NCBI RefSeq assembly: GCF_004801305.1
Contig: NZ_SSOD01000007.1
Location: forward strand, 1 to 64,000
Length of the DNA: 64,000 bases
Reading direction: 5' to 3'
DNA from: Pseudothauera rhizosphaerae
Lineage (GTDB): Bacteria; Pseudomonadota; Gammaproteobacteria; Burkholderiales; Rhodocyclaceae
The notes below the pieces were generated by a model. That model was given only the letters and a program-made list of their open reading frames with translations. It had not been told where the DNA came from and did not search any database. A program made the translations under genes and the position numbers. Shown in pieces: positions 22,776 through 28,114 of this stretch (its first letter is position 1; the number at the start of each line of letters is the position of its first letter).

Positions 22776-23294
22776 GTGGTCAATCAACGCAGCGACGCCA
22801 GGGGCGAATGGACCGGCCCGCAGGGCACCATCCTTTTCCGGCCGGACGAACTCGCCGAAGTGATCGCTTCGCCGTCGGCCGACAGTGAAGGCGACGTCGA
22901 ACGCGCCGCCCTGGTCGGCATCACGCCGCCCTTCGAGGACCAGCGCTTCGTTCTCAAGCGCGGCAAGACGCTGATCGGCCGCCGCGAGGACAACGACATC
23001 ATCCTGCCGGACGACAGCGTGTCCTCCCAGCACGCCTGGATCCTGCACGAGGACGGGAGCTACCGCGTCATCAACATGCTGTCGACCAACGGCACCTTCG
23101 TCAATGACGAGCGGATTCACGACCATACGCTGAGCGAGGGCGACCGCATCCGCCTGGGCCGCGCCGAGTTCGTCTTCCACGGCGGGCTGCCGCCGGTCCG
23201 CCCCAAGGCCGTGCAGACCGGCGTGCCGGGCTGGGTGTGGGGCGCGGCGGCCCTGGTGCTCGCCCTCGCCGCGGCCGCCCTGCTCGCCTTCTGA
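22776..23294 (+). CDS. FHA-domain membrane-anchored protein
   Basis: 172 residues from GTG 22776. Residues about 55-135 form a forkhead-associated domain, which binds phosphothreonine peptides; key residues are present: Gly68-Arg69 (IGRR), Ser84 and His86 (SSQHA) and Asn105-Gly106 (STNGTFVND). A single C-terminal hydrophobic segment (about 152-171) would anchor it with the FHA domain in the cytoplasm. The N-terminal 50 residues are polar and unassigned. The kinase gene starts 11 bases after the stop, so the two are very likely co-transcribed and this is a probable reader or substrate of that kinase. The partner is an inference. Confidence 0.88.
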   Translation: MVNQRSDARGEWTGPQGTILFRPDELAEVIASPSADSEGDVERAALVGITPPFEDQRFVLKRGKTLIGRREDNDIILPDDSVSSQHAWILHEDGSYRVINMLSTNGTFVNDERIHDHTLSEGDRIRLGRAEFVFHGGLPPVRPKAVQTGVPGWVWGAAALVLALAAAALLAF

Positions 23295-23305
23295 GCCCGG
23301 CGCCC

Positions 23306-25003
23306 ATGTCCGTCACGCTCGGGCGCTACATCCTGCGCGGAGAGCTCGGCAGCGGGGCGACCTCCATCATCCACCGCGGCTACGATCCGCGCATCCGGCG
23401 CATCCTCGCCATCAAGACGCTGCGCCCGGAATACGCCGAGCGCGAGGAATACCGCTACCGCTTCCTGTCCGAGGCGCGCGCCGCGGGCACCCTCACCCAC
23501 CCCGGCATCGTCACCATCTTCGACGTGGGCGTGGTCAACGGCGTGCCCTTCATCACCATGGAGCTGCTGGAAGGGCCGACGCTGGCGTCCTTCGTCGAAC
23601 GCCACGGGCGCCTGCCCCTGCGCATGATCCTGCGCATCGTCACGCAGATCGCCGACGCGCTCGACTACGCCCACCGCCAGGGCGTGGTGCACCAGGACAT
23701 CAAGCCGGAAAACATCGTCGTCACCAGCGAGAGCGGCAACGTCAAGGTGATGGATTTCGGCATCGCCCGTCTGCGCCACAAGGCCGAACGCGACAACGCC
23801 ACCGACGGCGTGGCCGGCACGCCGCACTACATGTCCCCGGAACAGATCCGCGGCGGCGCCGTGGACGGACGCACCGACCTCTACGCCCTCGGGGTGCTGC
23901 TCTACTGGCTGCTGGCCGGACACACGCCGTTTCGCACCAACAACGTGCCCGACCTGCTGCGCAAGGTGCTCAAGGAGCCGCTGCCGCCGCTCAAGCCGTT
24001 GGACCCGGCCACGCCGGAAGCCCTGCTGGACTTGGTGCGCACGCTGCTGGCCAAGGACCCCGCCGAACGCTACCAGACCGCGGCCGAACTGATCGAGGAC
24101 CTGCGCCGCATCGACGACGCGCTGGCCGAGCGCGAAACCGCCTGGCACGGCCGCCGCATCATCCCCATCCGCGTACGCTGGACCGCGCTGATGGGCATGC
24201 TGGTGGCGGTCACCGTGGCCCTCGGCATGGCCGTGGTGTACTACAAGCAGAACCAGGCCATGACCCGCGTCGCCTTCGACTTCGGGCTCACCCTCACCCG
24301 CACGCTGGCCACGGAAAGTGCCGAGGACCTGCTGCTCGACGACCGCATCGCCATCCAGGCGCTGGTGGACGAGATGGTGCTCAACCGGGAGATCGTCTAC
24401 ATCGCCGTCAGCGACCGCAGCGGCCGCATCGTGGCGAGCACCGATGAGGCCCTGCTCGGCGCCGACGGCGGCGACCTGCCCACCGGACGCCACCTGCTCA
24501 GCCGCGACGACCAGGCGGTTTACGAAGTGGCCGACGCCGAGGGCCACTCCTATTTCCTGTTCGACACCCCGGTGCAGTACCAGGCCCACGAGCTCGGCCA
24601 CCTGCGCGTGGGACTGGCCACCAACGCCGTACAGGCGGCCAATCGCACCACGCTGGCGGCGATGGTCGCGGTCATGCTGGTCATCCTGGTGACGGTCTTC
24701 ATCGGTGCCTACATGCTGTCGCGGCGGCTCGCCGTGCCGCTGGAGATCCTGCGCCGGGCGCTGGGCCACATCGCCCAGGGGCGTTTCGGCAGCCGCATCC
24801 GCATGCGCCGCAACGACGAATTCGAACGCCTGTTCGCGGCCTACAACAGCATGGCGGATTCACTGGAAGCGCGCATGTTCGTGGCCCACTCCGCCCGGCG
24901 CAACGCCGCGGTGCCCAGCGGCAAGCCCGCGGAGCCCGCCACGCGCATGGTCGAAACCGAGACGCGCCTCGCGCGCAAGGCGGGCCCCGCCACCAGGCGC
25001 TGA
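23306..25003 (+). CDS. Receptor-like Ser/Thr protein kinase with periplasmic sensor and HAMP
   Basis: 565 residues from ATG 23306. Kinase domain at about 7-265: Gly-rich loop GELGSGATS, ATP-binding Lys37 (AIKTLR), catalytic loop HQDIKPEN (129-136, Asp131), DFG 150-152, and GTPHYMSPEQ 171-180. The usual Arg of HRD is Gln130, so it is a non-RD kinase. Membrane helix about 291-313, then a predicted periplasmic region 314-449 with a Cache/PAS-like feel (YIAVSDRSGRIVASTD), second helix about 450-471 and a HAMP-like segment about 472-525 (RRLAVPLEILRRALGHIAQG, DEFERLFAAYNSMADSLEA), then a short basic tail. It would phosphorylate cytoplasmic proteins in response to an envelope signal. Follows the FHA gene; ends four bases from the convergent LysM gene. 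Confidence 0.9.
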   Translation: MSVTLGRYILRGELGSGATSIIHRGYDPRIRRILAIKTLRPEYAEREEYRYRFLSEARAAGTLTHPGIVTIFDVGVVNGVPFITMELLEGPTLASFVERHGRLPLRMILRIVTQIADALDYAHRQGVVHQDIKPENIVVTSESGNVKVMDFGIARLRHKAERDNATDGVAGTPHYMSPEQIRGGAVDGRTDLYALGVLLYWLLAGHTPFRTNNVPDLLRKVLKEPLPPLKPLDPATPEALLDLVRTLLAKDPAERYQTAAELIEDLRRIDDALAERETAWHGRRIIPIRVRWTALMGMLVAVTVALGMAVVYYKQNQAMTRVAFDFGLTLTRTLATESAEDLLLDDRIAIQALVDEMVLNREIVYIAVSDRSGRIVASTDEALLGADGGDLPTGRHLLSRDDQAVYEVADAEGHSYFLFDTPVQYQAHELGHLRVGLATNAVQAANRTTLAAMVAVMLVILVTVFIGAYMLSRRLAVPLEILRRALGHIAQGRFGSRIRMRRNDEFERLFAAYNSMADSLEARMFVAHSARRNAAVPSGKPAEPATRMVETETRLARKAGPATRR

Positions 25004-25007
25004 AAGA

Positions 25008-25997
25008 TCAGGATGCGTCCAGCTCGTTCAGGCGCCGCTTGATCTCCAGCGCGCGCGTGCGATAGCCCCGTGCCGGCTCGAACGTGGGGTCGAGGGCGAG
25101 CGCCTTGTCCCACAGCGCAATCGCCTCGTCCAGACGCTGGTTGCGGTAATGCACCACCGCCGCTTCGTGATAGCCCGCCACGAGCTTGCGCCCGATCTCC
25201 TGGTGATGCTGCTGCGCCGGCTCCAGACCGGGCGAAAGCGCCAGCGCCAGGCCGAAGGCCCGGTGCGCGGCTTCCAGATGCCCGGCGCGCATCAGCTTGA
25301 TCCCCTGTTCCTGGTGCTCCCGCGCCGACTCCGCGGTTTCGACGGCTTTGGACGCTTCGGCGGGCCGCGGCTCCCTGGCCGCCGGCCGCTGCGGCGCTGC
25401 TGCCTGCTCCGCCTCGTCCCGCTGCGTCGTTTCCTCGGCCCGCGGCTCCTTCTCCCGCTCGGCCTCCAGCCGGGCGGGCGGCGGCACGGGCCGCTGGCGC
25501 GGTATCTTCAGCGCCTGCCCCACGTTCAGCCCCTTGGCCGGGGAGATGCCGTTGTAGCGGGCGAGACCGACGAAATACATGGCATCGCCCAGGTGGCGCT
25601 TCGCCAGACCGCCCAGCGTCTCGCCGGAGCTGACCACGTGGCGGCGATGCTCCTCGCCGAAAACGGCCACCGGGTCGGAGTCGAGCTGGTACAGCAGCTT
25701 TCTGGCCACACCGCTGCCCGGCTCGCGTTTCAGGTAGGCCACGAGCGCTTCGCGCGCCTCGCTGTTGCGCCCGCGCTCCAGCATCCTGATGATCGTGGAA
25801 AGATTGCGCACCGGCGCCTGGGGTTTGGCCTTGCTGGCCGGCGCGCTGGGCTCGGGCGCGGCAGCAGGCTTGGCCACCGGCTTGGCTGCCGGCTCCGCCG
25901 GGGCCGTCGCTGCCGGACGCAGGAACGGCGGAAGATGGGAGCAGGCACCGAGCGTCAGTGAGAGAGCGAGCAGCAAGTAGCCCGATCGTATGGTCAT
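25008..25997 (-). CDS. LysM and TPR-like lipoprotein
   Basis: 329 residues from ATG 25997, chosen for the GGAAAG just upstream; ATG 26015, which overlaps the PP2C stop as ATGA, is an alternative. Signal peptide with lipobox TLGAC (Cys19), so an envelope lipoprotein. A Pro/Ala-rich linker follows, then a helical segment 60-110, a LysM domain at about 118-168 (HVVSSGETLGGLAKRHLG ... LNVGQALKIP) that should bind peptidoglycan, a charged linker, and tetratricopeptide-like repeats at about 215-329. It lies 14 bases after the PP2C gene on the same strand and convergent with the kinase. A role in reporting cell-wall state to the kinase is an inference from position. Confidence 0.82.
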   Translation of the reverse strand: MTIRSGYLLLALSLTLGACSHLPPFLRPAATAPAEPAAKPVAKPAAAPEPSAPASKAKPQAPVRNLSTIIRMLERGRNSEAREALVAYLKREPGSGVARKLLYQLDSDPVAVFGEEHRRHVVSSGETLGGLAKRHLGDAMYFVGLARYNGISPAKGLNVGQALKIPRQRPVPPPARLEAEREKEPRAEETTQRDEAEQAAAPQRPAAREPRPAEASKAVETAESAREHQEQGIKLMRAGHLEAAHRAFGLALALSPGLEPAQQHHQEIGRKLVAGYHEAAVVHYRNQRLDEAIALWDKALALDPTFEPARGYRTRALEIKRRLNELDAS

Positions 25998-26011
25998 GGC
26001 ATGTCTTTCCG

Positions 26012-26839
26012 TCATCTGAAGGCGTGAAACAGTCCCATCGCCAGCGCCGCGAAAACGGCCGCATACAGCGGCCACAGTTGCCGGTGCGCCATGCGCAGGG
26101 GTTCCCCGGCCGGCTGCAGCACGGCCACCGTCGCGTTGTCACCATCCGCGCCGCCGCGTCCGGCGGCGATCTCCACCCAACGCGTACAGGCCGCTGCCGC
26201 ATCGGCTTCCCGCAGCAGCCCGGCCATCTCGGCGCCGGAAACCCGTTCCCAGAAGCCGTCCGTGCACAGCACGAAGCCGGTCCCGGCGCTCACCTGCATC
26301 TGTCCGTGGGTGGTCTGTACGGTCTCGTCCGCGCCGAGCCCGCGCAGCAGCTTGTTCTGCTCGGGGTGTGCGGCAACGGCGTCCGCGTCGATGCGCCCGC
26401 AGCGCACCAGTTGCTGCACCACCGTGTGATCCTCGGTGCGGCATACCGGCAGGCCGTCGCGAAAACCATACACCCGGCTGTCGCCCACATGCACCCACCA
26501 CGCCCGCTCCGGGGTGGCGAGCAGGGCCGCCACCGTGGAGCCGCCCGCCTCGCCGCCATCCTGCGCACCGCGCCGGATCTCGGCGTGCGCCTCCTGGCAC
26601 AGGGTTTCCAGGAACGCGCCCGGATCGGCCGGAGGATCGGCCCGCCCGCCCCACAGGCGAGCGGCGGTGTCGATCACCACCTGGGCAGCCAGGTCCCCGC
26701 CCTGCCGCCCGCCCATGCCGTCGGCCACGACGAGCAGATGAACCGTGCCGTCCGCGCTGACGAAGCAGGCGGCGCGATCCTGCTGCACCGGCCGTCCGCC
26801 GATATGGGCTGCGTATCCTGCACGTTTCGACCCCCTCAT
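26012..26839 (-). CDS. PP2C-family Ser/Thr phosphatase, membrane-anchored
   Basis: 275 residues. All metal-binding motifs of PPM/PP2C phosphatases are visible: QQDRA (20-24), VVADGMGG (38-44, Asp40), GGSTVAALL, HVGDSRVYG, LCTDGFWE and the final GDNATVAVL. A C-terminal hydrophobic segment (about 252-271) suggests inner-membrane anchoring with the catalytic domain in the cytoplasm. It should remove phosphate added by the neighbouring Ser/Thr kinase, like Stp1/PrpC. First gene of a minus-strand pair with the LysM lipoprotein. The start ATG 26839 gives a compact N-terminus close to the family. Confidence 0.9.
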   Translation of the reverse strand: MRGSKRAGYAAHIGGRPVQQDRAACFVSADGTVHLLVVADGMGGRQGGDLAAQVVIDTAARLWGGRADPPADPGAFLETLCQEAHAEIRRGAQDGGEAGGSTVAALLATPERAWWVHVGDSRVYGFRDGLPVCRTEDHTVVQQLVRCGRIDADAVAAHPEQNKLLRGLGADETVQTTHGQMQVSAGTGFVLCTDGFWERVSGAEMAGLLREADAAAACTRWVEIAAGRGGADGDNATVAVLQPAGEPLRMAHRQLWPLYAAVFAALAMGLFHAFR

Positions 26840-26967: not shown

Positions 26968-26996
26968 TTGACAGCGGGCCGGGCGGAGTGTGCAAT
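26968..26996 (+). promoter_or_regulatory. Candidate promoter before the radical SAM gene
   Basis: TTGACA (26968-26973), 17 bases, then TGCAAT (26991-26996): a perfect -35 and a four-of-six -10. Initiation would be expected near 27003, on top of the most obvious start codons, so either transcripts are leaderless or the true start is further downstream. Confidence 0.55.
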
Positions 26997-27001
26997 GGGG
27001 C

Positions 27002-28114
27002 ATGACTGTAAGAACGCACAGTATCAAGATACACAGCCCCCCGGTGGCGCACGTGGCCGGCGTGCGCGGACGCGGCAGCACGTTCAATCCGCATGCGCGC
27101 TTTCTCGCCCTGCAGCGCGAGGCGGAAGCCGACGCCGCCGCGGACGGCGGCCCGCCCACGCAACTGACCGCGGAAAGGGCACGCAGCATCCTCAGCTACA
27201 ACCGTTCACCGGACCTGCCCTTCGACCGCTCCATCAACCCCTACCGCGGCTGCGAGCACGGCTGCATCTACTGCTACGCGCGCCCCAGCCACGCCTACAT
27301 GGACCTGTCGCCGGGGCTGGATTTCGAAACGCGCCTGTTCTACAAGCCGGACGCGCCCGAACTGCTGCGGCGCGCACTGGCACACCCGCGCTACCGCTGC
27401 GCACCCATTGCGCTGGGCACCAACACCGACTGCTGGCAGCCGGCCGAACGCAGGCTGAGACTCACCCGCCGCGTGCTGGAAGTGCTGCTGGAATGCCGCC
27501 ATCCCGTCGCCATCGTCACCAAGTCCGCGCTGATCGAGCGCGACCTCGACCTGCTAGGCGAATTCGCCCGGCTGGGCCTGGTGCGGGTCACGGTCAGCGT
27601 CACCACCCTCGACGACGCCCTGGCGCGTCGCCTGGAGCCCCGCGCGTCGCGCGGGGAACGGCGCCTGGCGACGATTGCCGCGCTGCGGGCGGCGGACATT
27701 CCGGTGGGGGTGTTCTTCGCGCCGCTGATCCCGGCGCTCAACGACCATGAGCTGGAATCCGTCGTGGAAGCCGCCCACGCGGCCGGCGCGGACCAGGCCG
27801 CCCATGTGCTGCTGCGCCTGCCGCGGGAGGTGCAGCCCTTGTTCGAGGATTGGCTGGCGACGCACTACCCGGCGCGCGCCGCCCACGTCATGAGCGTACT
27901 GCGCCAGAGCCGCGGCGGGCTGGCCAACGATCCCCGCTTCGGCCACCGCATGCGCGGCGAAGGCCCCTTCGCCCGCCTCTACGGCCAACGCATGGCCCGC
28001 GTGCGCGAACGCCTGGGGATGGTGCCGCACGGCATGGAGGAACTGCGCTGCGATCTCTTCCGCGCCCCGGCGAATCCCGCCGGCGAGCCGCCCGTGCAGG
28101 GCAGCCTGTTCTGA
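27002..28114 (+). CDS. Radical SAM protein, PA0069/SplB-related family
   Basis: 370 residues from ATG 27002; GTG 26990 and GTG 27044 are alternative starts in the same frame. The radical SAM cluster motif is CEHGCIYC (Cys84, Cys88, Cys91), binding a 4Fe-4S cluster. The N-terminal GRGSTFNPHARF and ILSYNRSPDLPFDRSINPYRGC are hallmarks of the PA0069-type subfamily of COG1533, whose best known relative is spore photoproduct lyase. LGTNTDCWQPAER is also conserved. Function in non-sporulating proteobacteria is not established; a DNA or RNA repair-like role is a guess. It ends nine bases from convergent argJ. Confidence 0.85.
   Translation: MTVRTHSIKIHSPPVAHVAGVRGRGSTFNPHARFLALQREAEADAAADGGPPTQLTAERARSILSYNRSPDLPFDRSINPYRGCEHGCIYCYARPSHAYMDLSPGLDFETRLFYKPDAPELLRRALAHPRYRCAPIALGTNTDCWQPAERRLRLTRRVLEVLLECRHPVAIVTKSALIERDLDLLGEFARLGLVRVTVSVTTLDDALARRLEPRASRGERRLATIAALRAADIPVGVFFAPLIPALNDHELESVVEAAHAAGADQAAHVLLRLPREVQPLFEDWLATHYPARAAHVMSVLRQSRGGLANDPRFGHRMRGEGPFARLYGQRMARVRERLGMVPHGMEELRCDLFRAPANPAGEPPVQGSLF

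Follow-up and report, generated by a model that had tools for sequence, protein, structure and literature searches.

The closest described systems pair an FHA protein of the GarA/OdhI type with the kinase PknB or PknG. Autophosphorylated threonines in a disordered segment of PknG recruit the FHA substrate, whose ETTS region PknG phosphorylates (PMC8546545); a second source calls GarA unique to Actinobacteria (PMC12321487). Here, we describe four adjacent genes of Pseudothauera rhizosphaerae, located on contig NZ_SSOD01000007.1 within an analysed stretch of 64,000 nucleotides (the window; its genome is referred to as G000), which encode an FHA protein, a receptor Ser/Thr kinase, a LysM/TPR lipoprotein and a PP2C phosphatase. 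This island shares with the GarA/OdhI systems a PknB-like kinase domain and an FHA protein that carries a threonine motif near its N-terminus and, with PknG (PMC8546545), a disordered kinase segment whose threonines are candidates for FHA docking. In contrast to GarA and OdhI, the island FHA protein is membrane-tailed and carries GPQGT instead of ETTS, its kinase is a Cache-HAMP receptor with a linked LysM lipoprotein, and the island is found in the class of Thauera and Thioalkalivibrio. PknG is soluble with a C-terminal TPR domain, whereas the island kinase has two transmembrane (TM) segments, a Cache domain and a HAMP domain, and no TPR. The FHA protein also misses the curated equivalog score for GarA/OdhI (NF041660, 60.9 versus 200 bits).

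In the PASTA kinases (PknB, StkP, PrkC, IreK), too, a Hanks-type kinase domain precedes a membrane-spanning part and an external sensor, and they act with a PP2C partner of the Stp1 type in an envelope context. The island kinase differs from them in its Cache domain, second TM segment and C-terminal HAMP domain, and no Pfam match to PASTA repeats was found in it. Membership of the PASTA kinases was rejected, the PknB_PASTA_kin model scoring 297.1 against 450 bits and covering residues 6-279 only. The likeness to PASTA circuits drawn in a preliminary description of this locus is an analogy that stands in parts (kinase domain, PP2C, envelope context). PASTA senses peptidoglycan (PMC12189002). 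In the PknG-GlnX-GlnH pathway (PMC8546545), a kinase, an FHA substrate, a membrane protein and a lipoprotein are proposed to cooperate; the island has comparable components, but its sensor and kinase form one protein and its lipoprotein is of the LysM/TPR type rather than a solute-binding protein. Cache receptors have, like the island kinase, an sCache_3_2 sensor between two TM segments and a HAMP domain after the second. Unlike them, the island kinase has its kinase domain before the first TM segment, its HAMP domain towards the C-terminus, and an FHA partner and a LysM lipoprotein beside it. Given that a published Cache census includes a Ser/Thr kinase class (PMC4822843), Cache kinases as such are not new.

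We propose that the four genes encode a transmembrane Ser/Thr phosphosignalling module in which a tail threonine of the kinase would dock the FHA protein, Thr18 of the FHA protein would act as a switch, and PP2C would reset the system. We give this proposal about even chances. The gene linkage, domain make-up and conserved motifs on which it is built are directly observed. Somewhat more tentatively, we suggest that the island may represent a GarA-type FHA switch outside Actinobacteria, tethered to the membrane, with a HAMP tail presented as FHA dock, in an envelope module with an outer-membrane LysM lipoprotein. In the openly licensed literature, partly judged by title, no paper on this kinase-FHA-PP2C-LysM gene set was found.

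The kinase tail and the FHA protein

The Hanks-type kinase domain (residues 11-261) is followed by a TM segment, the Cache domain, a second TM segment, the HAMP domain and then only a tail (about 40 residues in the window). A HAMP domain usually passes its signal to an output domain C-terminal to it. Among the FHA-paired kinases, HAMP was found in 16/16 and sCache_3_2 in 15/16; in the window the Cache match (PF17203, sCache_3_2) reaches 29.2 bits against a cut-off of 28.4, a refinement of the periplasmic sensor previously predicted for this kinase. K37, E56, D131, N136 and D150 are invariant in the nine rows of the kinase alignment. The catalytic loop HQD (window positions 23690-23698) is present in 11 of the 16 FHA-paired kinases, while five have HRD; kinases of the non-RD kind are generally regarded as independent of activation-loop phosphorylation. 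Among solved structures, the kinase domain matches PknB best, and these PknB entries include 6i2p, in which GarA is present as well.

Thr546 is the sole invariant residue C-terminal to Arg523 in nine aligned kinases. A T-x-x-hydrophobic pattern occurs in 15 of the 16 tails of FHA-paired kinases (shuffled mean 4.2, with none of 5000 shuffles as high), and the tighter pattern [AP]TR followed by [MLVIT][VLIM] in 10 of the 16, compared with 0.03 in shuffles. Only one of six FHA-less kinases carries a T-x-x-hydrophobic tail (Fisher p 0.0013 against the paired kinases, relatedness ignored); four of these six tails were scanned by script, with the first 8 residues omitted, and two (G361 and G370) were read by eye. 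G033 is not one of the 16 counted tails but one of the six FHA-less ones, while G265 and G069 were part of the wider alignment and are not among the 16 sequences counted. Kinases that have an FHA partner thus tend to carry the tail motif. In G624, which was found after the motifs had been fixed, both GPQGT and PTRIL are present, and all four genes keep their order.

In FHA phosphothreonine readers, the phosphate is contacted by GR, SxxH and NG residues, and the phosphate-contact residues R69, S83, H86 and N105 are invariant in the nine rows of our FHA alignment. GPQGT is present in 15 of the 16 FHA proteins and replaced by GSQGT in the remaining one (G206), so that GT is found in all 16. The mean pairwise identity of these proteins is 97.5% within GPQGT, compared with 18% for residues 1-13, 55% for the three residues that follow the motif, 30% for residues 22-45 and 61% for the FHA domain. 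The best solved match of the FHA protein is GarA (E 3e-15 with phmmer, E 2e-18 with a profile). The alignment covers Thr18 in 6/8 GarA/OdhI rows of each search, and in the printed alignments this residue falls on the ETTS phospho-switch of GarA/OdhI. At its C-terminus, the protein has a hydrophobic segment (Kyte-Doolittle hydropathy maximum 2.46), as do 15 of 16 homologues. The FRPDEL stretch was considered as proof of GarA homology, a reading that was rejected on the ground that sequences outside the window's clade lack FRxD. The preliminary description had missed three features, namely the motif resembling that of GarA, the HAMP domain and the tail threonine that is conserved.

In G326 and G215, the kinase tails contain TLVNEPD and TVVNEPD, respectively, near their ends. 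In G326, the LysM gene is adjoined by a gene that joins a nucleotide cyclase domain (PF00211) with an FHA domain (L208:6049-6954). Together with the NEPD-type tails, this suggests that another FHA protein may replace the adaptor in these genomes.

Conservation of the four genes

Seventeen FHA-kinase pairs were found; the LysM gene accompanies all of them in the genome, a PP2C-LysM pair 15, and in 13 all four genes are adjacent. These 13 loci keep the same order, tail to tail, and belong to about six genera, Thioalkalivibrio among them. Together the genes make up a conserved unit, found more often than chance would allow. Among 61 genomes of relatives, they occur together in G000, G002, G003, G004, G005 and G031, and five of the six searched genomes of the window's genus have all four, the sixth (G001) having none. 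G033 has the kinase (37% identity), the LysM protein (32%) and PP2C, with no FHA gene within the 18 kb examined. Named genome contigs yielded 67 FHA loci, five of island type, two of which are G004 and G002 again; Thioalkalivibrio sp. ALJ24 and T. halophilus have all four genes, and a Halothiobacillaceae metagenome-assembled genome (G428) has FHA and kinase only. Run against 369 class genomes, the FHA profile gave nine strong matches (E <= 4e-32; next 1e-19). Besides the window, all four genes were found in G218, G422 and G329, which belong to one genus, and in G206; G421 and G348 have FHA, kinase and LysM, G283 has FHA and kinase, and G265 an FHA-PP2C pair only (with GPMGT). The PP2C-LysM pair lies elsewhere in the genome, unlinked to the FHA-kinase pair, in G283 and G428. 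In 398 genomes of the phylum, searched at E up to 1e-25, the FHA protein was found in the window and in G624 only, both of the same class. The flanking open reading frames (ORFs) vary between lineages, as judged by eye without family searches, and conservation thus seems to concern the gene set and not its wider surroundings. The ORFs were called by script from the first start codon, and several N-termini are hence too long.

The LysM protein is present in 20 of the 369 class genomes. Within the stretch examined, a Cache-HAMP kinase (by profile coverage) lies near the LysM gene in 12 of these 20, seven of them with an FHA gene (G000, G206, G218, G422, G329, G348, G421) and five without (G361, G081, G370, G326, G215). 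In G283 the Cache-HAMP kinase is at another place in the genome, and the kinase of G378 gives no match to Cache; the neighbourhoods examined are those of all 20 genomes except G381. The LysM-kinase link is therefore common, whereas the LysM-phosphatase link is mostly confined to FHA-bearing genomes. The PP2C-LysM pair, taken as an operon in the preliminary description, is present in 15 of the 17 FHA-kinase genomes, the window's among them, while across the broader set of LysM relatives PP2C adjoins the LysM gene in a minority only.

Related kinases were also found with a polysaccharide deacetylase. In G033, G081 and G370, a deacetylase gene (PF01522, 82-89 bits; lipobox identified by eye) comes after that of the kinase, then one for a TPR lipoprotein, and these operons converge on the LysM gene (they are headed by the related Cache-HAMP kinase at L205:1116-6611, L207:3999-8563 and L075:8105-12930). 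The LysM-like stretch of the deacetylase is weak, being below the Pfam cut-off in G198 and, in G081 and G370, matched only by a profile of our own. A deacetylase lipoprotein in the kinase operon of some relatives favours an envelope role for the family, which is unproven. That the deacetylase might belong to the module as its fifth component in the clade of the window was rejected: 13 of 15 genomes searched have some match, but only that of G033 is close (51% identity over most of the protein, compared with 32-39% over parts in the rest).

Layout of the locus and its surroundings

The four genes are present and placed as first described, in two pairs converging with four bases between them (Table 1), and their identities are confirmed by Pfam matches and, for FHA, kinase and PP2C, by invariant residues. 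The FHA and kinase genes are separated by 11 bases and the PP2C and LysM genes by 14; across 17 loci, the gap between kinase and LysM genes has a median of 22 bases (range 1-142).

Table 1. Features of the phosphosignalling locus in the window
Feature	Position	Strand	Description and evidence
FHA protein gene	22776-23294	+	172 amino acids, GTG start, C-terminal TM segment; PF00498 71.9 bits
GPQGT motif	22815-22829	+	FHA residues 14-18, Thr18 the proposed phospho-switch; conservation and alignment to GarA/OdhI ETTS region
Receptor Ser/Thr kinase gene	23306-25003	+	565 amino acids, HQD catalytic loop (non-RD); PF00069 162.9 bits
Periplasmic Cache domain	24284-24640	+	Residues 327-445, between TM segments at ~293-311 and ~450-468; PF17203, hydropathy
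HAMP domain	24716-24871	+	Residues 471-522, C-terminal to second TM segment; PF00672 40.9 bits
Cytoplasmic tail	24875-25000	+	Contains PATRMV; Thr546 (24941-24943) the proposed FHA docking site; alignment, tail motif counts
Convergent gap	25004-25007	.	Kinase stop to LysM stop, 4 bases; sequence
LysM/TPR lipoprotein gene	25008-25997	-	329 amino acids, lipobox; PF01476 29.4 bits, PF07719 46.6 bits
LysM domain	25500-25640	-	Residues 120-166; PF01476 29.4 bits, cut-off 20.9
PP2C phosphatase gene	26012-26839	-	275 amino acids, C-terminal TM segment, first gene of PP2C-LysM pair; PF13672 57.1 bits

PP2C phosphatases of the Stp1/IreP type bind metal through aspartates, and D21, D40, D194 and D234 of the island phosphatase are invariant in eight aligned rows; its curated score (NF033484, 153 bits) is under the cut-off of 230. 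The profile built from the LysM stretch hits 4xcm and 4uz2, both of a cell-wall-binding endopeptidase-related protein. The lipobox of this lipoprotein is LGAC, with Ser following Cys19. By the Lol +2 rule, the residue after the lipobox cysteine decides the sorting of lipoproteins to the outer membrane, and the serine would place the LysM lipoprotein there. Ser or Ala is found at this position in 13 of the 14 LysM proteins with a lipobox site and Asn in the other (G206); the lipobox search found no site in the G422 LysM protein.

No promoter or terminator was found at the convergent junction. Between 22550 and 27050, there are three terminator-like sites (2.0 expected) and no promoter-like site (0.2 expected). 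The tight tail-to-tail layout in 17 loci, without a terminator-like site at the window's junction, makes overlapping antisense transcripts possible. Beyond the PP2C gene, between it and an argJ-like gene, lies a divergent gene (26990-28114) whose product appears to resemble a radical SAM protein; it seems to be absent beside PP2C in some relatives. Further FHA-PP2C and kinase-PP2C pairs occur in the same genome at C6:156902-157887 and C11:143565-145189, and PF00069 has six matches in this genome, five of them above the cut-off.

Proposed mechanism and alternatives

Given the PknG precedent, we propose Thr546 as the dock and Thr18 as the switch, with PP2C resetting both. The phosphorylation steps, the docking, the fold-back switch and the identities of signal and client are what we infer for the module. 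The receptor kinase, which is probably dimeric, would sense a periplasmic or envelope signal through its Cache domain. This signal would pass through the second TM segment and HAMP, so that Cache and HAMP might together set the state of the dimer and hence the exposure of the tail and the activity of the kinase. The active kinase would phosphorylate Thr546 in its own tail, phospho-Thr546 would recruit the membrane-tailed FHA protein, and the docked protein would then be phosphorylated at Thr18 in GPQGT. As in GarA/OdhI, phospho-Thr18 may fold back on its own FHA domain, switching which client is held. PP2C would strip the phosphates from Thr546 and Thr18, and the envelope input may be supplied or tuned by the LysM/TPR lipoprotein, whose probable location is the outer membrane.

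Several observations weigh against this reading. The wider alignment has no Thr in the Thr546 column in G283, G421 and G348; G283 and G348 were counted only by virtue of T-x-x-hydrophobic elsewhere in the tail, and G421 is without the tail motif. The tail pattern was picked after the tails had been inspected, and the kinases are related, with no correction made for relatedness. In two of the eight GarA/OdhI rows (6i2q and 2kkl), the match starts downstream of GPQGT. Past GT, the resemblance to GarA (FRxD) does not extend outside the clade of the window, and the switch may hence be an analogue of that of GarA and not a homologue. Membrane attachment, first described for all three signalling proteins, holds in the window but is not universal among homologues: the FHA protein of G206, with its GSQGT motif, lacks a TM segment (leaving 15 of 16 with a C-terminal hydrophobic segment), and 4 of 12 PP2C homologues lack such a segment (8 of 12 have it). 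G421 and G348 have FHA, kinase and LysM, but no PP2C beside LysM, and of the four-gene loci three represent one genus (G218, G422, G329) and five the window's genus. In the wider class, no such kinase lies near the LysM gene in G144, G268, G198, G161 and G409, and kinase and PP2C are both adjacent to LysM in 5/20 genomes only (6 when counting G283, where they are unlinked). This weakens the case for a tie between LysM and phosphatase outside the FHA-bearing set; the co-occurrence expected at the outset holds for the four genes as a unit (5/6 genus genomes, 13 loci) but not for the LysM gene in general.

The wall-state sensing circuit first suggested for this locus has to be weighed with these points in mind. 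In its strict form, the LysM lipoprotein would sense peptidoglycan and directly control the kinase sensor or the phosphatase, which we consider rather unlikely, although LysM and kinase are also linked in genomes that lack the island FHA gene (G361, G326 and G215, as well as G081 and G370, where other genes intervene), the polysaccharide deacetylase lies in the kinase operon of G033, G081 and G370, and the Cache region matches WalK-type sensor entries (E 0.01-0.02). This match is weak, however, the lipoprotein-kinase contact and the deacetylase substrate are hypothetical, and among 15 genomes searched, 14 of which carry the FHA gene, only the FHA-less G033 has a close homologue of the deacetylase. 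While the four genes do form a unit, the sensor is a Cache domain and not a peptidoglycan binder, with LysM confined to a separate lipoprotein; wall sensing is plausible but unproven. The Cache sensor could also belong to a nutrient or metabolite circuit. Its ligand would then be a small periplasmic molecule, while enzymes would be bound and inhibited by the FHA protein until the N-terminal threonine of the latter is phosphorylated, as for GarA/OdhI, which inhibit 2-oxoglutarate dehydrogenase. Such a circuit is consistent with GarA and OdhI being the nearest solved relatives of the FHA protein, which has a threonine at the switch position. It is nevertheless unlikely in our view, as the FHA protein is membrane-tailed in 15/16 cases, unlike the soluble GarA, falls short of the OdhI model (NF041660) as given above, and has envelope genes as neighbours, namely the LysM lipoprotein gene and, in G033, G081 and G370, those for the deacetylase and TPR lipoproteins.

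That the pairs are on opposite strands, and so in separate transcription units, could also mean that two envelope operons with separate tasks are mere neighbours. LysM homologues without a kinase in the examined stretch of the five genomes listed above, including G409 with PP2C and LysM but no kinase, would fit this explanation. We regard it as very improbable, since the order is kept in 13 loci despite differing flanking ORFs (by eye), and since both pairs are present in G283 and G428 although unlinked. The threonine phosphorylation pathway of the type VI secretion system (PpkA, PppA, Fha, TagQRST) has the same three enzyme types and a lipoprotein (TagQ). There is next to no chance that it explains the island: VipB/TssC (PF05943) was not found in 11 of 14 genomes searched, including the window's, and the FHA protein is not TagH by curated score (52.7 versus 120.25 bits). 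Given the absence of a TssC match from G000, this pathway was rejected for the window's genome.

Little is known of circuits in Gram-negative bacteria that correspond to those of the PASTA kinases. The FHA switch and the HAMP tail would seem to be sharper and more testable claims than wall sensing. The proposed four-gene module is compact, with a writer, a reader, an eraser and an envelope lipoprotein, and it offers two named threonines to test. If the proposal is correct, the switch principle of GarA/OdhI would extend beyond its phylum, and a HAMP domain would feed a docking tail, read by an FHA adaptor, instead of an enzyme.

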